This document shows positions 1-17,538 of a stretch of DNA of 33,690 bases, one piece after another. The DNA lies in NCBI GenBank assembly GCA_029858935.1, contig JAOUEA010000004.1, positions 1 to 33,690 of the forward strand, in the 5' to 3' direction. Below the pieces are notes generated by a model that ran no database searches, was not told the DNA's origin, and saw only the letters and a program-made list of their open reading frames with translations. A program made the translations under genes and the position numbers. Each line of letters begins with the position of its first letter. The first letter of the stretch is position 1. The DNA comes from Actinomycetota bacterium. Its GTDB lineage: Bacteria; Actinomycetota; UBA4738; HRBIN12.

Positions 1-478
1 GCCGACGCTCGATGCCCTCGGCGATCTGTCCGACCGACCCCGGCGCGGGCCCCGCCAACACCATCTCGCGATCCGCTGCCCGGCGGAGCGACTGCAGGAA
101 CTCCACCGGGTCGATGTTCTTGTCGACGAATCCGTCAGCGCCCATGAAGAGCGCTCGGGAGATCGTGGTGGCATCGGCGTTCGCGCCGCACCCGAGGATC
201 GCATGCGTCGGGAAGCGCTCCCTCAGCGTGCGGATCAGCCAGAAGGAGTCTCGCTCCCCTGCGAGTCCGAGGCCGACGAGCACGACCACCCGCGATCGTC
301 GCACCCGGCTCACGATCTCCAGGCCTTCCTCTGCCGTGCCGGTCTCGGCGAGCACCTCCATGTCGGGGCGGTCGTCGATCAGCATCGTCATGCCGGCACG
401 CACGACCGGGAGGGGGTCGACGACGATCACCCCGAGCCGGCGCCGTGCGCCAGGTCGTGCCGTCTGTCGGCGATCCAC
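1..478 (-). CDS. Response regulator receiver domain, NarL/FixJ-like (C-terminus beyond window start)
   Basis: Manual reverse-strand translation from GTG at 478: VDRRQTARPGARRRLGVIVVDPLPVVRAGMTMLIDDRPDMEVLAETGTAEEGLEIVSRVRRSRVVVLVGLGLAGERD...; open through position 1, so absent from the ORF track. Confidence 0.75.
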   Translation of the reverse strand, partial: MDRRQTARPGARRRLGVIVVDPLPVVRAGMTMLIDDRPDMEVLAETGTAEEGLEIVSRVRRSRVVVLVGLGLAGERDSFWLIRTLRERFPTHAILGCGANADATTISRALFMGADGFVDKNIDPVEFLQSLRRAADREMVLAGPAPGSVGQIAEGIERR

Positions 479-625
479 GCTTCCTCCGTTGCCGTCGGGT
501 GTGCCTCGATGGGCTCTCGCACCCGCCGGGTGGGAGGGCACGTGTCTCCTATCGGCACGGGATGGCCGCGGGATGAGGGTGCACGCCTTCATGCGGCCCC
601 GAGGGCCGTCCCACCGTGGGAGGGT

Positions 626-1291
626 TCACGGTTCGATGAGGCCGAGCTGCGACGCTCGGGAGACCGCTTGCACGCGCGTGCGCACGCCGAGCTTGCGGTA
701 CAGCTTCGCCACGTGTGTCTCGACCGTGCGAGGTGAGATGCCGAGGCGGCGGCCGACCTGCGCCATCGTGAGGCCTTGGCTGACCAACACGAGGATCTCG
801 TGCTCACGTGGCGTGAGGGCGGCCTGCACCTCGGAGCCCTCTCGGGCCTGTTGCGCGAATCGCCCGAGCGCCATGACGGCCGCCTGCTCGAAGTCGGGCG
901 CGATCGCCCGCCCCCCGTCGGCGACCACGCGGACCGCGGCGCCCACCCCGGTCAGCCCGTCGGACTTGCGGACGTACCCCCGCACGCCCAGCCGCAGGGC
1001 CCGTAGCACCGAGGCGCCGTCGGTGCGATCTGTCAGCACCACCGCCGCGGCCGCCACACCCTCCTCGCGCAGCGCGCGCAGCGTGGCGAGCTCGCGCTCG
1101 GCATCGTCGAGCCGATCGTCCAACACGATGACGTCGGGCTTGAGCGTCCGGCACGCGTCGATCAACGCCGTCGGATCCCGTACCTCGGCCACCACGTGGA
1201 GCCGCGGTTCGGCCTGACACGCGCGGCGGACGACCTCCGCGACCACACCGTGTCCGGCCGCGATGACGACCGAGACGGTCTCGCTGTCCAT
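626..1291 (-). CDS. LuxR/NarL-family DNA-binding response regulator
   Basis: 221 aa; receiver-like N-terminus and C-terminal LuxR HTH (LTPREHEILVLVSQGLTMAQVGRRLGISPRTVETHVAKLYRKLGV). Confidence 0.9.
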   Translation of the reverse strand: MDSETVSVVIAAGHGVVAEVVRRACQAEPRLHVVAEVRDPTALIDACRTLKPDVIVLDDRLDDAERELATLRALREEGVAAAAVVLTDRTDGASVLRALRLGVRGYVRKSDGLTGVGAAVRVVADGGRAIAPDFEQAAVMALGRFAQQAREGSEVQAALTPREHEILVLVSQGLTMAQVGRRLGISPRTVETHVAKLYRKLGVRTRVQAVSRASQLGLIEP

Positions 1292-1302
1292 GACGCGGAA
1301 GG

Positions 1303-1983
1303 CTAACCGGTGCTCGCGGACGATCGTGAGGTGGTCGCCAGCCCATGACGCCAGGCGATGCGAACGGCTTCGACCTTCGAGTGCACCCCGAGCTTGGCCA
1401 GGATGTTCTTCACGTGGCTCTGCACGGTGAGCGGACTGATGCCGAAGGCCTCGGCGACGTCTGCCGTCGAGGCGCCGGCTGCGAGCGTCTGCAGGATCTC
1501 CCGTTCTCGCGGCGTGAGGGAACCCAGCGCGTTGAGGCCGGCGGCGTCGCCCCTGCTCGGCGAAGTGATGCGGTCGACCAGCACGGAAAGCTCCTCGACC
1601 GGCAGCACCAGTTCGCCGTCCAGCGCCCGGCGGAAGGCGTGTACCAGCGAGGCATCACGTGTTGAAGGCAACACGCCGCTCGCGCCGGCGGACAATGCGT
1701 TGGCGGCGACATCGGGGCCACCCTGCTCGCTCGCGGCGAGGACCCGGCCGAGACCGACCGCCTCGGTGATCGCTGCGACCACCTCGTTGCCGCGCCCGTC
1801 GGCGCGGTCGAGGCCCACCACCACGAGATCCGCGCTCCCCTCGGTCAGGGCATCGATCGCGACGGCCTGGTCGGCGACCGGACCGCTCACCGACACGGGG
1901 CCACGTCGCGGGAGAGCGCCGGCCAGGCTGCGCGCCAGCCGTGGATCGAGATCCACCACGAGGACGCGGATGCGGTTGGGCAT
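1303..1983 (-). CDS. LuxR/NarL-family DNA-binding response regulator
   Basis: Start trimmed to MPNRIRVLVVDLDP at 1983; LuxR HTH LTPREREILQTLAAGASTADVAEAFGISPLTVQSHVKNILAKLGV. Confidence 0.88.
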   Translation of the reverse strand: MPNRIRVLVVDLDPRLARSLAGALPRRGPVSVSGPVADQAVAIDALTEGSADLVVVGLDRADGRGNEVVAAITEAVGLGRVLAASEQGGPDVAANALSAGASGVLPSTRDASLVHAFRRALDGELVLPVEELSVLVDRITSPSRGDAAGLNALGSLTPREREILQTLAAGASTADVAEAFGISPLTVQSHVKNILAKLGVHSKVEAVRIAWRHGLATTSRSSASTG

Positions 1984-2072
1984 ACCCTTCCATCGGCACG
2001 AGGCGGGGAACCCCTGAACCTCGCGCGGTCGTCGGCACGCCCGCCGGAGCCCCCGGGTGACACACTGGTTCG

Positions 2073-4160
2073 GTGACGACCGGTCGAGAGCTTCGGACGC
2101 CGAACCGGCTGGCCGGCGAGGCCAGCCCCTACCTCCTCCAGCACGCACGCAACCCAGTGGATTGGTTCCCGTGGGGTGAGGAGGCCTTGCAGAAGGCGGC
2201 TGACGAGGACAAACCGATCTTCCTGTCGATCGGGTATGCAGCGTGCCACTGGTGCCACGTGATGGAGCGCGAGTCGTTCGAAGACGAGGCCACCGCGGCG
2301 CTCATGAACGAGCACTTCGTCTCGATCAAGGTCGACCGCGAGGAGCGACCGGATCTCGACGGCATCTACATGAATGCCGCCCAAGCGATGACGGGTCAGG
2401 GAGGGTGGCCCCTCTCGGCGTTCCTCACCCCCGCGGGAGAACCCTTCCATGCCGGCACGTACTTCCCCCCCGAGCCACGCCACGGCCTTCCTGCGTTCAG
2501 AGACCTCCTGCGAGGCATCGCAGAGGCTTGGCGGGAACGGCGCGAGGAGGTCGTCGACCAGGGAACGCGCGTCGCGCAGGCGATCGCACGCGCGGCGACG
2601 TTGCCCACGGGCGGGCGTGCCCTCGACGAGGCGATCGCCGATGCGGCCGTCGCCACCCTGCGTCAGACGTTCGACGGGCGCTGGGGCGGGTTCGGCGGCG
2701 CGCCCAAGTTCCCGCAGGCGATGACCCTCGAGTTCCTGTTGCGACGCGCCGTTCGAGGCTCGCTCGGAGCACTCGAGATCGTCACCATCACGCTCGACCA
2801 CATGGCCGACGGCGGCATCTACGACCACCTCGGCGGCGGATTCGCCCGCTACTCGACCGACGAGCGATGGCACGTGCCCCACTTCGAGAAGATGCTCTAC
2901 GACAACGCGCAACTGCTGCAGCTGTACACGAGGTCCTGGCAGGTGACCGGTGATGAGCGATACCGCACGGTCGCCGTCGAAACCGCGGAATACCTGCTCC
3001 GAGAGATGCAGCATGCCGAAGGCGGCTTCTTCTCGTCGCAAGACGCCGACTCCGACGGCGTCGAGGGCAAGTTCTTCACGTGGTCGTGGGCCGAGCTGGT
3101 CGGCCTCGTCGGGGAATCCGTCGCTCGGGCCTTCGGGGCCACGCCCGAAGGCAACTGGTCCGGAGAGCACGGGCCGACGAACGTGCTGTGGCGGCCCCGG
3201 CCGATCGACGAGCTGGCCTCCACCCTCGGGCTGGGCGCGGACGAGCTCGCCGCCGAGGTCGCGGACGCGCGGACGGTGTTGCTCGAGGCGCGAGCGTCGA
3301 GGGTGCGCCCGGCGACCGACGACAAGGTGCTCGCCGCATGGAACGGCATGGCGATCGCGGCGTTCGCCGAAGCCGGCCGTGCCCTGGGGGAAACGGCGTA
3401 TACGGACGCGGCGGTGCGGGCCGCCTCCTTCGTGCTGGCGCACCTGCGCGATGACACGGGGCGACTTCTCCGATCCTGGCGCAACGGCGTGGCCGGACGG
3501 CCGGGCTTCGCCGACGACCACGCGCTGATGGCGTCCGCGTGCCTCACGCTCTACGAGACGACGTTCGAGGTCGCCTGGTTCGAACGTGCGCTGGAGCTGG
3601 TCGACGAGCTGCGCCAGTCGTTCCTCGACCGCGAGGCCGGAGGTTTCTTCCAGACCGGATCGAGCACGGAAGCGCTGCTAGTGCGGCCGAAGGAGCTCTA
3701 CGACAACGCCACGCCCAGTGGGAACTCGGTGGCGGCCGACGTGCTGTTGCGCCTCGCCGCCATCACCGGCAACGCCGAGCTCGAGGCCGATGCCGAGTCG
3801 GCGCTCCGCCTGGTCGGCGAGGCGCTCGAGCGTGCTCCCGGAGCCTTCGGTCACGCCCTCTGCGCCCTCGATCGTTGGCTGGGTCCACATCGAGAGGTCG
3901 CGATCGTGGGTGACCCAGCCGACGACGACACCCTGGCTCTCGTGGCCGAGGCGACGGTGCGCCGCTTCCGGCCGAACCTGGTGCTGGCCGTCGCTCGGCC
4001 CGACGACGAGAGGGCCACGCGTGCCGTGCCCCTCCTGCGCGGGCGCGATGCCGCCGGCGGGGCCGCCACCGCCTACGTGTGCGAGGGTTTCGCGTGCCGC
4101 CTTCCCGTCACCGACCCGGCGGCCATGGCCGATCAGCTCGACGAGGCGTTCGGCGCCTGA
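2073..4160 (+). CDS. DUF255 / YyaL-type thioredoxin-domain protein (SSP411/spermatogenesis-associated protein 20 family)
   Basis: 695 aa; [29 protein letters not shown] and [14 protein letters not shown] are hallmarks; GTG start. Confidence 0.92.
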
Positions 4161-5611: not shown

Positions 5612-6466
5612 CTAGCGGGACCGAAGCAGCGCGGCCGAGGCCTTCCTCGGCATCGTGGCGAGCCGGCCGATCGGCCGATAGCGACGATTCCTCTCGCGGA
5701 ACGACTCGACGTCGTCGGCGAACCCGGGCACATCAACCACCAGGCGCTGGAACCGCTCAGACGCCCACGCGTAGAGCTCCAGGTCGAGCGCGTTGTGCTC
5801 ACGCACCGTCGAGAGCTCTGCGTCGGTCAACGGGGCCCGGGCCGACCGGGTGGGATCGACGTTCGTGACGACGTATCGGACCCGTTTCCAATCGAAGGCA
5901 CGGATCATCGCCACGATCGACTCGTCGAACCGTTCCGTGAGGCCGGCGACGGTGAACCCTTCGAGATTCGCCTTGGCCCGGTCGAGCATGGCCCGGGTGC
6001 ACGCTCCGAACGGCGTGGTGGTGTCGCCGGCGAACGCGCGGGTCTGGGAGTTGTCCATCTCGAGGGACAGGCCGCTCTCGATGTAGGAGACGAGATCGGC
6101 ATGGTCCTGAGCCTCCCGGTGCAGCAGGTGGCCCTCGTGGCGGCGAACGTGGCCGTACTGAGAGCGCACGAGCGCCACGGGCTCCCGCAGCAGCGTGACG
6201 TATTCGCTCGGGCGCGGCACGGCCTCGTGCAGCCCGTACGTCATGTGTCCCATGATCAGACGGGCCCGAGCCCGCTCAGCCTCGGGCAAAGAGGCGAACC
6301 ACGCGACGGCCCCATCGCGCCGGAGCCGCCCGGGCTGCACGGTGGGCGCCTTGACCTCGACGACCTCGTTCCTCCCGAACTGGCGGCGCAGCGCCCGGCG
6401 CATCGTGGCACCCGCGGTCTTGCCCACATGCAGGAAGATCACGGTTGGGCGTTCGGTGGTGGACAT
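5612..6466 (-). CDS. Sulfotransferase family protein (Sulfotransfer_2-like)
   Basis: Start trimmed to MSTTERPTVIFLHVGKTAGATMRRALRRQF; HxGKTAG PAPS-loop-like motif and YVTLLREPVALVRSQYGHV 3'-PB-like motif. Confidence 0.8.
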   Translation of the reverse strand: MSTTERPTVIFLHVGKTAGATMRRALRRQFGRNEVVEVKAPTVQPGRLRRDGAVAWFASLPEAERARARLIMGHMTYGLHEAVPRPSEYVTLLREPVALVRSQYGHVRRHEGHLLHREAQDHADLVSYIESGLSLEMDNSQTRAFAGDTTTPFGACTRAMLDRAKANLEGFTVAGLTERFDESIVAMIRAFDWKRVRYVVTNVDPTRSARAPLTDAELSTVREHNALDLELYAWASERFQRLVVDVPGFADDVESFRERNRRYRPIGRLATMPRKASAALLRSR

Positions 6467-6672
6467 GACGCTCCGTGCGGGGACTGGGGAACCGCACCGA
6501 CCGGATGCTAGCACCGGCACCTCGGGCCGAAGGTCGAGGAGTTCCTGCCGTTCGACGGTGATCCGGGTCGCCTTTCGGCCGAAGCCGCTGCCGAGCGGCA
6601 CCGGTATCCTCGGAGCTCCCGGCATCCGAGCGGATGGAGATGCTTCCTCGTGACCGATAGACCGACCACGAC

Positions 6673-7608
6673 ATGACCCTTCCCCTGCCCACCGCCGTCA
6701 TCGCAGGGGTCGGCAAGGCCGGGACGACGTCGTTGTTCTGGTACCTCTCCCAACACCCGGACATCTGCGCGAGCGACGTGAAGGAGATCAGGTACTTCAC
6801 CGCCCTCTCCGAGGGCGACGGCGTGTTGCCGCCGATCGCCGAGTACGCCGGGCACTTCTCCGGGTGCGGGCGTCAGCGCCATCGCCTCGAGGCGAGCCCT
6901 CAGTACTTCCACGGTGGCGGCACGGTCGCCGCGGCCATGAGCGAGACGCTGCCCGACGTCAGGGTGATCGTGCTCCTCCGGGACCCGATCGACCGGCTCT
7001 GGTCAACGTTCCGATTCATGCGCACCCGCTTCGCCGACCTGCCCCACGACATGACCTTCGAGGCCTACGTCGAGGAGTGCATCGCGGTGCGGGAGCGCCA
7101 CGAGCCCTTCACGCCCGAGAACCGCCTCTTCCGCACGATCGAGGGGGGCTTCTACGACGAGTACCTCGATCCCTGGCTCGAGGCGTTCGGAGAGCGGTTC
7201 CGCATCGTGCTCTTCGAGCGCATGGCCGCGGAGTCCGCCGCTACGGTCCGCGACCTCAGCGACTGGCTCGGCGTCGACCCCGAGGTCGCCGACACGATCG
7301 ACTACAGCGTGGAGAACAAGACGGTGCCGGTGCGCAGCACCTCGCTGCAGCGACTGGCCCTGCTCGCCAACCGAGAGCACCTGCTCGGGAACAGGCGCAA
7401 GCTGAAGGGGCCACTCAGGAAGGCCTACTACGCGATCAACCGCCGGGCCGAGCCCGACCGCATGGCGCCCGAGACCCGCCGGCGCCTCGACGAGCTGTTC
7501 GCTCCGGGCAACCGAGCGCTCGCGTCGCGGCTCCGAGGACTCGGGTACGAGAACCTGCCGGCGTGGCTGACGGCCGACGCCGGCGACGAGAGGCACGCCG
7601 CACGATGA
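6673..7608 (+). CDS. Sulfotransferase domain protein
   Basis: 311 aa; AVIAGVGKAGTTSLFWYLSQHPDI and RVIVLLRDPIDRLWSTFRF motifs. Confidence 0.88.
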   Translation: MTLPLPTAVIAGVGKAGTTSLFWYLSQHPDICASDVKEIRYFTALSEGDGVLPPIAEYAGHFSGCGRQRHRLEASPQYFHGGGTVAAAMSETLPDVRVIVLLRDPIDRLWSTFRFMRTRFADLPHDMTFEAYVEECIAVRERHEPFTPENRLFRTIEGGFYDEYLDPWLEAFGERFRIVLFERMAAESAATVRDLSDWLGVDPEVADTIDYSVENKTVPVRSTSLQRLALLANREHLLGNRRKLKGPLRKAYYAINRRAEPDRMAPETRRRLDELFAPGNRALASRLRGLGYENLPAWLTADAGDERHAAR

Positions 7609-13348: not shown

Positions 13349-14289
13349 GCGTGCGACCCATCTTCCTGCTGTCGCTGCCGAGATCGGGCTCGACCCTCGC
13401 TCAGCGGGTGCTCGCCGCTCATCCGCAGATCGCGACGGCCGCCGAACCGTGGCTGCTCCTGCCCCACGTCTACGCGACCCGTGAACGAGGCATGGCTGCG
13501 GAGTACACGCAGCCGATCGCGGCGCGCGCCATCTCCGAGTTCGTGCGCTCGCTGCCCGAGGGCGATCGCGACTACCGCCAGGCGATGCACGACTTCGCCG
13601 TCGACCTCTACACGCGAGCGGCGGATGAGGGGTCGACGTACTTCCTCGACAAGACGCCCCGCTACCACTACATCGTCGAGGATCTGTTCGAGATCTTCCC
13701 CGAGGCGAAGTTCGTCTTCTTGTGGCGGAACCCGCTCGCGGTGGTCGCATCGATCGTCGAGACGTGGACCAAGGGACGCTGGAACGTCGATCGATGGCAG
13801 GGCGACCTCCGAGGGATCGCCTCGCTCGCCGATGCCTTCGAGGCACATCGGGAAACTGCGGCTGCGGTGCGGTATGAGGATCTGGTCGGTGACCCCGAAG
13901 CGGCTTGGCCAGGCATCTTCGAACACCTCGAGCTGCCGTTCGATCCCGGCCTGCTGACACGGTTCAGCGACGTGACCATCGATGGATCGATGGGAGATCC
14001 GACCGGAGTGCAGCGGTATTCGACGATCAGCGACGAGCCCCTGGAGAAGTGGCGATCGACCCTGGCGAACCCCTACCGTAAGCGCTGGTGTCGCCGATAC
14101 CTTCTCTGGATCGGTCGGCATCGACTCCAGCTCATGGGCTACGACCTCGATCGGCTGCTTGCCGATCTCGACGAGCTGGGCTCCTCACCTCGATCGGTGC
14201 CCTCCGACGCGTTCCGCGGCAGTTACTGGGCGATCGCGCAGCAGAGGAAGCGGTCGGCGTTCAAGCGGATGGCGCCGCGGATCCGCTGA
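13345..14289 (+). CDS. Sulfotransferase family protein
   Basis: GTG start overlapping the upstream stop; VSVRPIFLLSLPRSGSTLAQRVLAAHPQIATAAEPWLLLP ... FVFLWRNPLAVVASIVETW. Sits inside the longer 12784-14289 ORF. Confidence 0.87.
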   Translation: MSVRPIFLLSLPRSGSTLAQRVLAAHPQIATAAEPWLLLPHVYATRERGMAAEYTQPIAARAISEFVRSLPEGDRDYRQAMHDFAVDLYTRAADEGSTYFLDKTPRYHYIVEDLFEIFPEAKFVFLWRNPLAVVASIVETWTKGRWNVDRWQGDLRGIASLADAFEAHRETAAAVRYEDLVGDPEAAWPGIFEHLELPFDPGLLTRFSDVTIDGSMGDPTGVQRYSTISDEPLEKWRSTLANPYRKRWCRRYLLWIGRHRLQLMGYDLDRLLADLDELGSSPRSVPSDAFRGSYWAIAQQRKRSAFKRMAPRIR

Positions 14290-15562
14290 GTGCACCCGGT
14301 TCCGTCGATTCGTCATCGTCGTCGACGGGCTTCGGCTCCCCGATCGACATCGCGATGCCGTACAGACCGAAGATCGTGGCCGATCGCGAGGCTCCCGGCA
14401 GCACGGGGTTGAAGGCCATCGCCACCAGGAATCCGTTGAGGCACACGAGGATCGCCCTGAGCAACCCGGCCCTCGTCGACTGGCCCGCGCGCGCGAATCC
14501 GCGGTAGCGCCTGAGCAGCGTCACCTCGGCGATCACGAACCACCCGATCAGCAACCCGAACCCGACTGCTCCCCCGGCCGCAAGGAAGAGCACGAAGTCG
14601 TTGTGGAACGGCAGCACCCTGCCGTCACGCTCCCGCACCGCCGTCACTTCACCAGCGAAGCCCGATCCGAAGATCGGGGCCTCGCGCCAGCGCGAGATCC
14701 CCTGGTTCCACAGATCGAGACGGCCGCTGTTGGCGTTGGCCTTGTCGACGACCGCGAAGTAGTCGTCGGCCACATCGATGCCCTTCTCGAAGTTCGCCAA
14801 GGACAACGCCCCGATCGCCACCACCGCACCGACGACGAAGATCGTGCGCATGCTGCTCGACCGCCTACCGGTCAGATAGAGCGTCAACACGACGGCAGCT
14901 CCCACCATCAGCGACGTCGCCGACGGATACGTGGTGAAGATGATCGCCGCCATCACCAGGACCAGCACGAGCCGTCTGCGGTTCCCGAGTGCGATAGCAG
15001 CTCCGACGGCGAGGGCGACCATCGCCACGCTCGCGTTCCTGTACTGCCTGAACTGCAGCAGGCCGGGCAGGATCTCGAGGTTCACGAGCACGTTCATCGC
15101 CGTGTAGGCGGTCGCGATCAGCGATACCCATGACAGGGTCTTGGCGACCTCGCGATCGGTGGGATCCTCGGTCGTCAGGAGGTAGAGGAACGCCAGCATC
15201 ATCGGCAGGAACACCGACCGGCCGGTCTCGACCGTGCCGAGGAGCGCGACCCCGATCATCGACCCCGTGAGGCCGAAGACGAACAGTGAGAACAACACGA
15301 GATCGGATGGAAGCGGACGCCTCACCACGAACCCGGGCTTGCGCAGCCTCACCCACACGGCCGCCACGATCGGCACCGCGATGATCAGGAACCGAGTCGC
15401 GCCGCCCTGCACCGATCGGTCCAGCCAGTCGTACACGTCGAACGACGCGGCGAGCATGATGACCAGGTAGGCCCGCCACAGCACGAAGGAATCGGTCGAC
15501 CGTGGCTCGATCGTCGCGGTCGGCTGGAACGACTCGGGTCGCACACGTTCCGCGGACCTCAT
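14261..15562 (-). CDS. O-antigen ligase/polymerase-like membrane protein (Wzy/WaaL type)
   Basis: 433 aa, many hydrophobic segments; RLDLWNQGISRWREAPIFGSGFAGEVTAVRERDGRVLPFHNDFVLFLAAGGAVGFGLL resembles the Wzy_C region. Confidence 0.82.
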   Translation of the reverse strand: MRSAERVRPESFQPTATIEPRSTDSFVLWRAYLVIMLAASFDVYDWLDRSVQGGATRFLIIAVPIVAAVWVRLRKPGFVVRRPLPSDLVLFSLFVFGLTGSMIGVALLGTVETGRSVFLPMMLAFLYLLTTEDPTDREVAKTLSWVSLIATAYTAMNVLVNLEILPGLLQFRQYRNASVAMVALAVGAAIALGNRRRLVLVLVMAAIIFTTYPSATSLMVGAAVVLTLYLTGRRSSSMRTIFVVGAVVAIGALSLANFEKGIDVADDYFAVVDKANANSGRLDLWNQGISRWREAPIFGSGFAGEVTAVRERDGRVLPFHNDFVLFLAAGGAVGFGLLIGWFVIAEVTLLRRYRGFARAGQSTRAGLLRAILVCLNGFLVAMAFNPVLPGASRSATIFGLYGIAMSIGEPKPVDDDDESTEPGALSGSAAPSA

Positions 15563-15595
15563 CGCACGCAGTGTAGACGGGTCGAGTTCGTCAGC

Positions 15596-17380
15596 CTATC
15601 GCTCGGCGCCCTTGGCGGGAGTCTCGGCGGTGGCCGGCGACCCCTTGCCGATGCCGACTGGCACCACCGGGGCACCCGGAGCTGTCGCCGGTCGCCGCGT
15701 GGTGCGAACCTCGGACGAGGGCTTGGGTCTGTGCGGCGGTTTCGATCGCTCGTCGGGGCCGTAGTACTGGTCGTAGTTGGCGTAGCCGAGCGAGCTGCGC
15801 TGCAAGGTCGTGACGTTGTTATACACACCACCGGCGATCTCGGCGCCGGCGGTGCGCAGCTGACGGACGGCATCCTCGAGCGCGGTGCGACTCGAGATCG
15901 CGGGGTCGTGCACGAAGAGCACGACGTCAGCCGCTTCAGCGAGGATCGACGCGTCGGCCACCGGCAGGGTCGGAGGTGCGTCACAGATCACGATGTCGGC
16001 CAGCCGCCGCAGGTCGTGGAAGACGGAGTCGGCATGGGGACCCGCAAGCAAGGAAACGGGGTCGTCGGGCATCGGGCCGCTCCTGATGATCGACAGGTTC
16101 GGAACCTCGGTACTCAGCACGACGTCGTCGAGGGTGCTGGTCGCCGCGAGGACCTCGTGCAGGCCGGCGCCGAAGGGCACGCCAAGGAACCGTTCCGCCC
16201 GTGGCCGTCGAAGGTCGGCGTCCACCAACAAAGTGCGAACGCCGGTCTCGGCGAGCACGACCGCGAGGTTGGCGGTCGTGGCGCTCTTTCCCTCGCTCGG
16301 CAGAGCGCTGGTCACGACGACGACACCGACCGCGCGCTGGGAACGCAGGAAGCGAAGGTTCGTCGCGAGCGTACGGTACGCCTCGGCCGCAGGGCCGCCG
16401 GGCTCATCGCGTGAAACGAGTTCGGCCTTGTCGCGGTTGGCCCAGCCCTCGACCGAGGGGATCACGCCCATGACGGGAGCTCCGAGGAACTCTGCCAACT
16501 CGTCGCGCCCTCCCACCTGGTTCGCGCGAAGCCCGAACACGACGGCGAGGCCGGCGCCGATGAACGAGCCGACGATGAACCCGAGGATCGACGCCAGCGC
16601 GAGACTCGGGCCCGACGGCTTGACCGGCGCCGCCGCGAACTGCACGATGCGCCCACCCGGGCTCGACGTCGCATTCCCGCGGATCTCCGCGATGTCCGTG
16701 GCGAGGCCGTTGATTTCGGCCTGCACCCCCTCGAGGGTCGCCCGGAGCCTGCCGATCTCTTCGGGGTTGTCACCGGCCTGGATGTCTCGTTCGATCTCTC
16801 CGGCCGTGCTGCTGAGCTCCTCGATCCGGTCCTGCAACGGCGTGATCGCGGCGTCGACCGAAGTGAGGATCTGCTCGCGGCGAGCGGCGAGGTACTCCTC
16901 GGCGAACGAGTTCGCGATCGTCGCCGCGGTCTCGGGTTCGCTCGCCAGGTAGCCGATGAACATCACGGCAGCATCACGGACCGGCTCGATGCGAACGGTC
17001 TTGGCGAGCTGCTCGGGCGAGGTCGACAATCCGAGCGAATCGCGCACCGCGGTCGCGATGTCGATCGAACGCACGATCTCGCCCTCGATCACCATGTCCG
17101 GCTGCAGGCTGGTGGGGTTGCCCGCCACCCCGGTGATCGCGGGGTTGACCAGAGGGTCCACGATGACCTTCGCTTGGGAGAAGTACATGGGCGGCCGGAG
17201 CGCCACGTAGGCTCCGGCGATCGCGGCGACGATCGTGGCCATCGCGACCACCGTCCACATCCGGGTCCGGATCATCTGCCAGTAGTCGCGCAGATCAAGG
17301 ATCCTGCTGGTGGTCTCGGACAACGCGTCGCTCTCCTGATCCCGAGGTTCGGCGACCTCGCCGAACCGTCGACCCGACAT
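15596..17380 (-). CDS. Polysaccharide co-polymerase / BY-type tyrosine autokinase (Wzz + CpsD fusion)
   Basis: 594 aa; Wzz N-terminus, Walker A SALPSEGKSATTANLAVVLAE, A' LLVDADLRRP, Walker B IVICDAPP, C-terminal Tyr cluster YANYDQYYG. Confidence 0.93.
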   Translation of the reverse strand: MSGRRFGEVAEPRDQESDALSETTSRILDLRDYWQMIRTRMWTVVAMATIVAAIAGAYVALRPPMYFSQAKVIVDPLVNPAITGVAGNPTSLQPDMVIEGEIVRSIDIATAVRDSLGLSTSPEQLAKTVRIEPVRDAAVMFIGYLASEPETAATIANSFAEEYLAARREQILTSVDAAITPLQDRIEELSSTAGEIERDIQAGDNPEEIGRLRATLEGVQAEINGLATDIAEIRGNATSSPGGRIVQFAAAPVKPSGPSLALASILGFIVGSFIGAGLAVVFGLRANQVGGRDELAEFLGAPVMGVIPSVEGWANRDKAELVSRDEPGGPAAEAYRTLATNLRFLRSQRAVGVVVVTSALPSEGKSATTANLAVVLAETGVRTLLVDADLRRPRAERFLGVPFGAGLHEVLAATSTLDDVVLSTEVPNLSIIRSGPMPDDPVSLLAGPHADSVFHDLRRLADIVICDAPPTLPVADASILAEAADVVLFVHDPAISSRTALEDAVRQLRTAGAEIAGGVYNNVTTLQRSSLGYANYDQYYGPDERSKPPHRPKPSSEVRTTRRPATAPGAPVVPVGIGKGSPATAETPAKGAER

Positions 17381-17538
17381 CGCTCCCCGTCAGGGGGAAC
17401 GCGGTGATGATACCGGAGCCCCTGTGCGGAAGCTCCGTGCGCGCAGCCATTTCATCACAGTCGCAACATGTAGGGCTGCGCTCTAAGCCCATCGGCTACA
17501 GTGTGCCGCGCGAAGGTCTCGACCCGTCCCGCCCGGTG

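Follow-up and report, generated by a model that had tools for sequence, protein, structure and literature searches.

In Streptomyces, the orphan atypical regulators BldM and WhiI need no phosphorylation to act, whether as homodimers or as heterodimers, and in WhiI one acid and the Lys of the pocket are absent (PMC4125116). Among pseudo-receivers, loss of the second acid is the commonest change (PMC12632262, PMC4395418), and a 2025 review (PMC12632262) calls it a mystery how bacterial pseudo-receivers are controlled. A pseudo-receiver regulator lies beside a receiver regulator in CmrRST of Clostridioides difficile (PMC12632262, PMC12548384). For Tad/Flp pili, the NarL/LuxR-family regulator PprB is encoded within flp-tad of Pseudomonas aeruginosa and activates flp-tad (PMC3510237). 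NarL and NarP homodimers bind a 7-2-7 inverted repeat of heptamers (PMC2718512). No described family matching the protein called P1 below was found, and an NCBIfam search for a named family gave no match above its cut-off.

The window, that is, the whole stretch of DNA analyzed here, is one entire contig (C212, 33,690 bases) of a genome (G000) that is 82% complete, with 2.6 Mb in 362 contigs; those of its relatives that have named records are for the most part uncultured actinobacteria. Three tandem regulators of the NarL/LuxR type occupy the left end of the contig and are transcribed from right to left, in the order P3, P2, P1:

1..478, minus strand: P1, Asp-less NarL/LuxR-type regulator, truncated in the linker by the contig end
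626..1291, minus strand: P2, NarL/LuxR-type regulator with intact HTH; acidic pair replaced by Ala-Gly, Asp58, Thr, and Lys kept
1303..1983, minus strand: P3, NarL/LuxR-type regulator with intact HTH; second acid, Asp, and Lys lost
2061..4160, plus strand: YyaL-like gene (DUF255/Thioredox_DsbH), conserved beside the regulators and divergent from them

We favor, as the probable reading, that P1, P2, and P3 form a module that regulates Tad/Flp pili without a kinase, and that P1, possibly dimerized with P2 or P3, acts at a predicted box before the pilin gene flp. P3 runs from ATG 1983 to a stop at 1303 and is followed after 11 nt by P2 (ATG 1291, stop 626). The likeliest P1 start is GTG 478-476, directly 3' of GGAGGAAGC (GGAGG), a start that agrees with the N-termini of relatives, with ATG 592 as the alternative. 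All three match Pfam Response_reg (E = 5.5e-9 for P1, 2.3e-9 for P2, and 2e-5 for P3, the last under the Pfam curated cut-off). An earlier note on this DNA, made from the sequence alone, had read the HTHs of P2 and P3 as intact, as their GerE matches bear out (E = 1.4e-17 and 3.8e-20, respectively), and had proposed looking further left for that of P1. Base 1 of the window is the contig end, hence the P1 HTH is missing from the window, although it is present in full-length relatives. Opposite-strand frames over P1–P3 were rejected as genes, being high-GC shadow frames. As the same note had remarked, no histidine kinase is in view: none of the 28 HATPase_c domains of the genome lies on the 33.7-kb contig (the far side of P1 being unassembled), and the three regulators have no adjoining cognate kinase there. 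Kinase domains do adjoin several other NarL-type regulators of the genome, e.g., on contigs C23, C110, and C209.

Aligned to NarL D13, D14, D59, S87, and K109, the pockets read D-P / G / G / K in P1, A-G / D / T / K in P2, and D-L / G / S / S in P3. The phosphoacceptor column had been placed correctly in the earlier note, and its central observation of three tandem NarL-type regulators with damaged pockets holds, with several losses to be added. P1 has Gly at the D59 position (codon 274-272) and Pro for the second acid, as noted before; its Thr/Ser is also replaced by Gly, while the Lys is retained. P2 keeps its Asp and loses the acidic pair, as had been described, and keeps Thr and Lys too. 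P3 has Gly at the Asp position (codon 1815-1813) and Ser in place of the Lys, in the region previously flagged as altered, and has lost the second acid as well. None of the three retains a complete DD-D-T-K pocket; P1 and P3 are receiver folds without key catalytic residues, and P2 belongs with them through its missing acids only. Since the other aligned NarL-type receivers of the genome (9 loci and one overlapping frame) are all canonical, the damage is a property of this locus. The P3 change from Asp to Gly depends on one base differing from the sister species G001, and an assembly error there is possible; the lost acid and lost Lys are seen in both species. One idea of the earlier note, that the lesions are mutually complementary, is misleading, and we rejected it on mechanism. 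A receiver uses all five pocket residues within one domain. A lesion in one protein therefore cannot be made good by another protein, and the lesions found here are of different ages.

The history of the pockets was traced in relatives. When 60 related genomes were searched, close orthologues of P2, with identities from 79% down to about 46%, were found in the family to which the window belongs. The order P3-P2-P1 is kept in G001, G006, G007, G008, G009, and G003, P2-P1 pairs occur in G019, G020, G024, and G035, and P1 is solitary in the flanking DNA examined in G021, G081, G238, and at a second G003 locus; in G002, P3 is absent and P2 directly adjoins the DUF255 gene. Of 397 genomes of the phylum, 17 had P1 matches at E < 1e-45, and 14 of these belong to the class of the window. 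In a 61-row tree, P1 formed one clade (100/100), P2 another (100/98), and the two were sisters (97/85), while P3 fell, on long branches, in a different family with canonical members. Pocket columns were compared for 18 P1, 13 P2, and 8 P3 relatives plus controls. All 18 P1 relatives, which span several families, are without the second acid and the Thr/Ser and have Gly, Ala, or Ser in place of the Asp; the conserved Lys is kept in 15. Because the phosphoacceptor is absent throughout, P1 is an ancient pseudo-receiver whose loss was old and single, whereas the P2 and P3 residues were lost later, within some lineages. Only the P3 orthologues of G006 and G020 have a canonical pocket, and that of G020 overlaps the gene upstream of it, which carries HisKA and HATPase_c; a kinase partner is therefore plausible as the ancestral state of P3. 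Separately, a canonical P3-like regulator lies beside a prephenate dehydratase gene in G005 (L134:9287-10225), where P1 and CpaE/TadZ both went undetected.

The suggestion of phosphorylation-independent regulation made in the earlier note is, judging from these residues, well supported for P1 and for the P3 of the window, and uncertain for P2, which retains Asp and Lys. The strongest alternative, which we regard as fairly unlikely, is that P2 is still phosphorylated by an unlinked kinase, with P1 and P3 as auxiliary modifiers comparable to RcsA or WhiI. Asp and Lys are kept in every P2 relative where they are readable, the full acidic pair is intact in five, and some of the HATPase_c domains of the genome lie on contigs without a receiver match. 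Against this, the P2 of the window has Ala-Gly where the Mg-binding acids belong, and seven relatives (the window included) have lost at least one acid. Moreover, P3 retains its Lys exactly where P2 retains its acids (8 genomes; Fisher p = 0.018, resting on few, related genomes and uncorrected for kinship), as would be expected if phosphate input had been lost.

The neighborhood of P1 and an operator-like box, both missed by the earlier note, suggest a function for the module. In relatives, a same-strand Tad/Flp operon lies beyond P1 and encodes the Flp pilin, TadE, TadG, CpaB, CpaE/TadZ, CpaF/TadA, and TadB/C (tad genes were identified through Pfam TadE, Tad, T2SSE, and T2SSF and a CpaE-type ATPase). 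Such genes stand beside P1 at 12 of 18 loci, compared with 0 of 10 control regulator loci. Most compared genomes are fragmented MAGs, and at five of the six tad-less P1 loci the DNA on the tad side is short (1 bp in G000, 0.4 kb in G017, 1.6 kb in G007, 2.1 kb in G238, and 4.4 kb in G020); at the sixth, the G003 triad is unlinked, yet the second P1 of that genome is linked to tad. Presence of P1 and tad across 27 genomes gave counts of 14/1/7/5 (p = 0.06). This test is weak because the P1-less tad contigs examined are cut at that side: all stop before flp or begin inside the neighboring gene, and seven tad-bearing genomes have no detectable P1. One genome, G020 (81% complete), has P1 and P2 with no CpaE/tad match. 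In G000 itself, TadG, CpaB, CpaE, and CpaF lie on the small contig C47 in a gene order similar to that of the sister species; the CpaE is 93% identical to that of G001, and the DNA is 86% identical to the corresponding G001 stretch (CpaF-CpaE-CpaB). C47 is likely the continuation of C212, and we infer tad linkage in the genome of the window from the sister species.

Further features were seen around these operons. Of the two tad loci of G003, the one on C8 (L088) is linked to P1; the other, on C11 (L202, G003:C11:288000-297000), has no P1 in the flanks examined and a 2-mismatch box before its flp. A conserved gene for a multi-spanning membrane protein of ~500 aa (L031:4884-6386, plus strand), for which Pfam gave no match, is oriented convergently with P1 and divergently from flp, with which it has a common box-bearing intergenic region; relatives of it occur in G002, G003 (C11), G006–G010, G012, G014, G019, and G024. 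This flp-adjoining gene (cl2) was not found in G000, consistent with the assembly gap. At its N-terminus, the G008 CpaE/TadZ (L034:15287-17443) weakly resembles a receiver (Response_reg, 20.9 bits); pseudo-receivers may thus be found among the assembly proteins of the Tad system as well as among its regulators. Elsewhere in the window, polysaccharide genes lie at 5615-6697 and 14264-17389 (sulfotransferase-like, O-antigen-ligase-like (Wzy_C), and Wzz plus tyrosine-kinase-like ATPase).

The candidate operator is a 16-bp box upstream of flp, TACGTAG-nn-CTACGTA, a 7-2-7 inverted repeat and hence of NarL geometry. Its core, TACGTA-N4-TACGTA, is common to the flp upstream regions of six relatives, and a dyad search found nine dyads in at least five of these six regions and none in 20 shuffles. 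Searched over 27 whole genomes, the exact box turned up five times, each time ahead of flp at a P1 locus; one of these loci is that of G012, where P1 is truncated by a contig end. Ten further matches have one mismatch, five at P1/tad loci (G010, G003, G006, G007, and G020) and five elsewhere; a reversed control pattern, with which the one-mismatch box was compared, gave 13 matches across all genomes. At the same loci, best matches averaged 1.2 mismatches upstream of flp vs 5.2 in random stretches. In two families the spacing is constant without gaps: the box, 19 nt, a GGAAT block, 21 nt, and a TAnnnT -10-like element, and from this fixed spacing the box would lie ~65 bp before the presumed transcription start. 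A second conserved block, (C)CGGGAAAnTCGGAATTCCC, is found in the L031:4733-4815 region and its equivalents, with constant spacing to both the box and the TAnnnT element. It is partly an inverted repeat (GGGAA-N8-TTCCC) and may be a second operator or belong to an unusual promoter.

Conclusions on target and operator are drawn from relatives, since the window contains no P1 HTH, flp, or box and the flp promoter of G000 is unassembled. In the window, the box had no match at two or fewer mismatches and one at three, which is chance level. The sole G000 match with at most one mismatch (G000:C102:1983-1998, L163) lies away from the tad genes and is a possible further target or a chance occurrence. 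In G019, G017, and G021, P1 is present with no recognizable box in the flanking DNA examined. P1 is the best candidate for the protein that binds the box, because the box is present without P3 (G002) and before tad at solitary P1 genes (the second G003 locus and G081). That the module instead controls another target, such as the divergent DUF255 gene or itself, with tad linkage as an inherited neighborhood, seems quite unlikely to us. DUF255 is a stable neighbor in the family of the window (G001, G002, G006, G007, G008, and G009, f1 genomes that have the locus), and the G020 box stands before P2 in its P2-P1 pair. However, DUF255 was not found beside P1 outside that family while tad linkage persists there (G035, G081, and G021), and the box goes with flp even in G003, where it is kept with two mismatches although triad and tad are unlinked. 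The DUF255 gene is probably outside the module.

Between G000 and G001, its congener and sister species, dN/dS is 0.10 for the P1 receiver, 0.15 for P2, and 0.22 for P3, and 0.18 and 0.25 for the P2 and P3 receivers alone, indicating genes under purifying selection and not pseudogenes. An AF2 model of the P1 receiver, of the kind proposed in the earlier note, gave a normal five-stranded receiver fold (pLDDT 89.7) with RcsB, LuxR-family, LiaR, and NarL receivers as nearest PDB folds; P3 was modeled as receiver plus HTH (pLDDT 79). It is very improbable that the receivers are functionless remnants decaying under relaxed selection, with only the HTH parts or nothing mattering: those of P2 and P3 do evolve faster than their own C-terminal halves, P3 has long branches, and G002 is without it, but receiver dN/dS is 0.10-0.25 with frames intact, and P1-specific motifs (V-G-L-G-L...D-A-x-W-L-I-R and SRALFxGADG) are strongly conserved over several families.

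Taken together, pockets, trees, selection, tad linkage, box conservation, and spacing are consistent with the kinase-free Tad/Flp module favored above. P1 would combine an intact receiver fold without phosphorylation chemistry with a NarL-type HTH, and P1 or a P1-containing dimer would recognize TACGTAG-nn-CTACGTA before flp. The flp-tad operon, whether activated or repressed, would be set by the level of P1 itself or by partner binding, not by Asp phosphorylation. P2 is the sister duplicate of P1, and P3 derives from a response-regulator family with canonical members and one kinase-paired relative; with the pocket losses of both in this lineage, control by the module has probably become kinase-free over time. 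The heterodimeric regulation suggested in the earlier note is a reasonable possibility in view of BldM–WhiI, where a degenerate regulator works as a heterodimer; what P1–P3 themselves show is tandem co-encoding. A more specific version, which we offer tentatively and hold less likely, is that P1 is a constitutive pseudo-receiver and an obligate heterodimer partner of its sister P2 and of P3, captured from a kinase-paired system, and that these partners repeatedly lost phosphorylation chemistry as a two-component system became, in successive steps, a phosphorylation-free switch sensing dosage or partners.

In the P1–P3 family, one member is fixed without the Asp, and its close relatives cover the whole series of states, canonical and fully degenerate pockets included. 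Together with a likely Tad/Flp target and a predicted 16-bp operator, this makes pseudo-receiver control directly testable, and it offers, for uncultured actinobacteria that have been little studied, a regulator of Tad pili together with a promoter architecture. Compared with known systems, P1 resembles other pseudo-receiver or aspartate-less domains in being without Asp, Thr, and second acid. CmrRST likewise co-encodes a pseudo-receiver regulator with a receiver regulator, but is of OmpR type and has an adjacent sensor kinase. PprB shares with P1, as seen in relatives, a NarL-type regulator gene at the flp-tad locus, whereas PprAB is a classical pair with the kinase PprA, has no pseudo-receivers, and belongs to a different phylum. 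BldM–WhiI, like P1–P3, are atypical regulators in actinobacteria; they control sporulation, with no tad link described there, whereas here three regulators are co-encoded in tandem.
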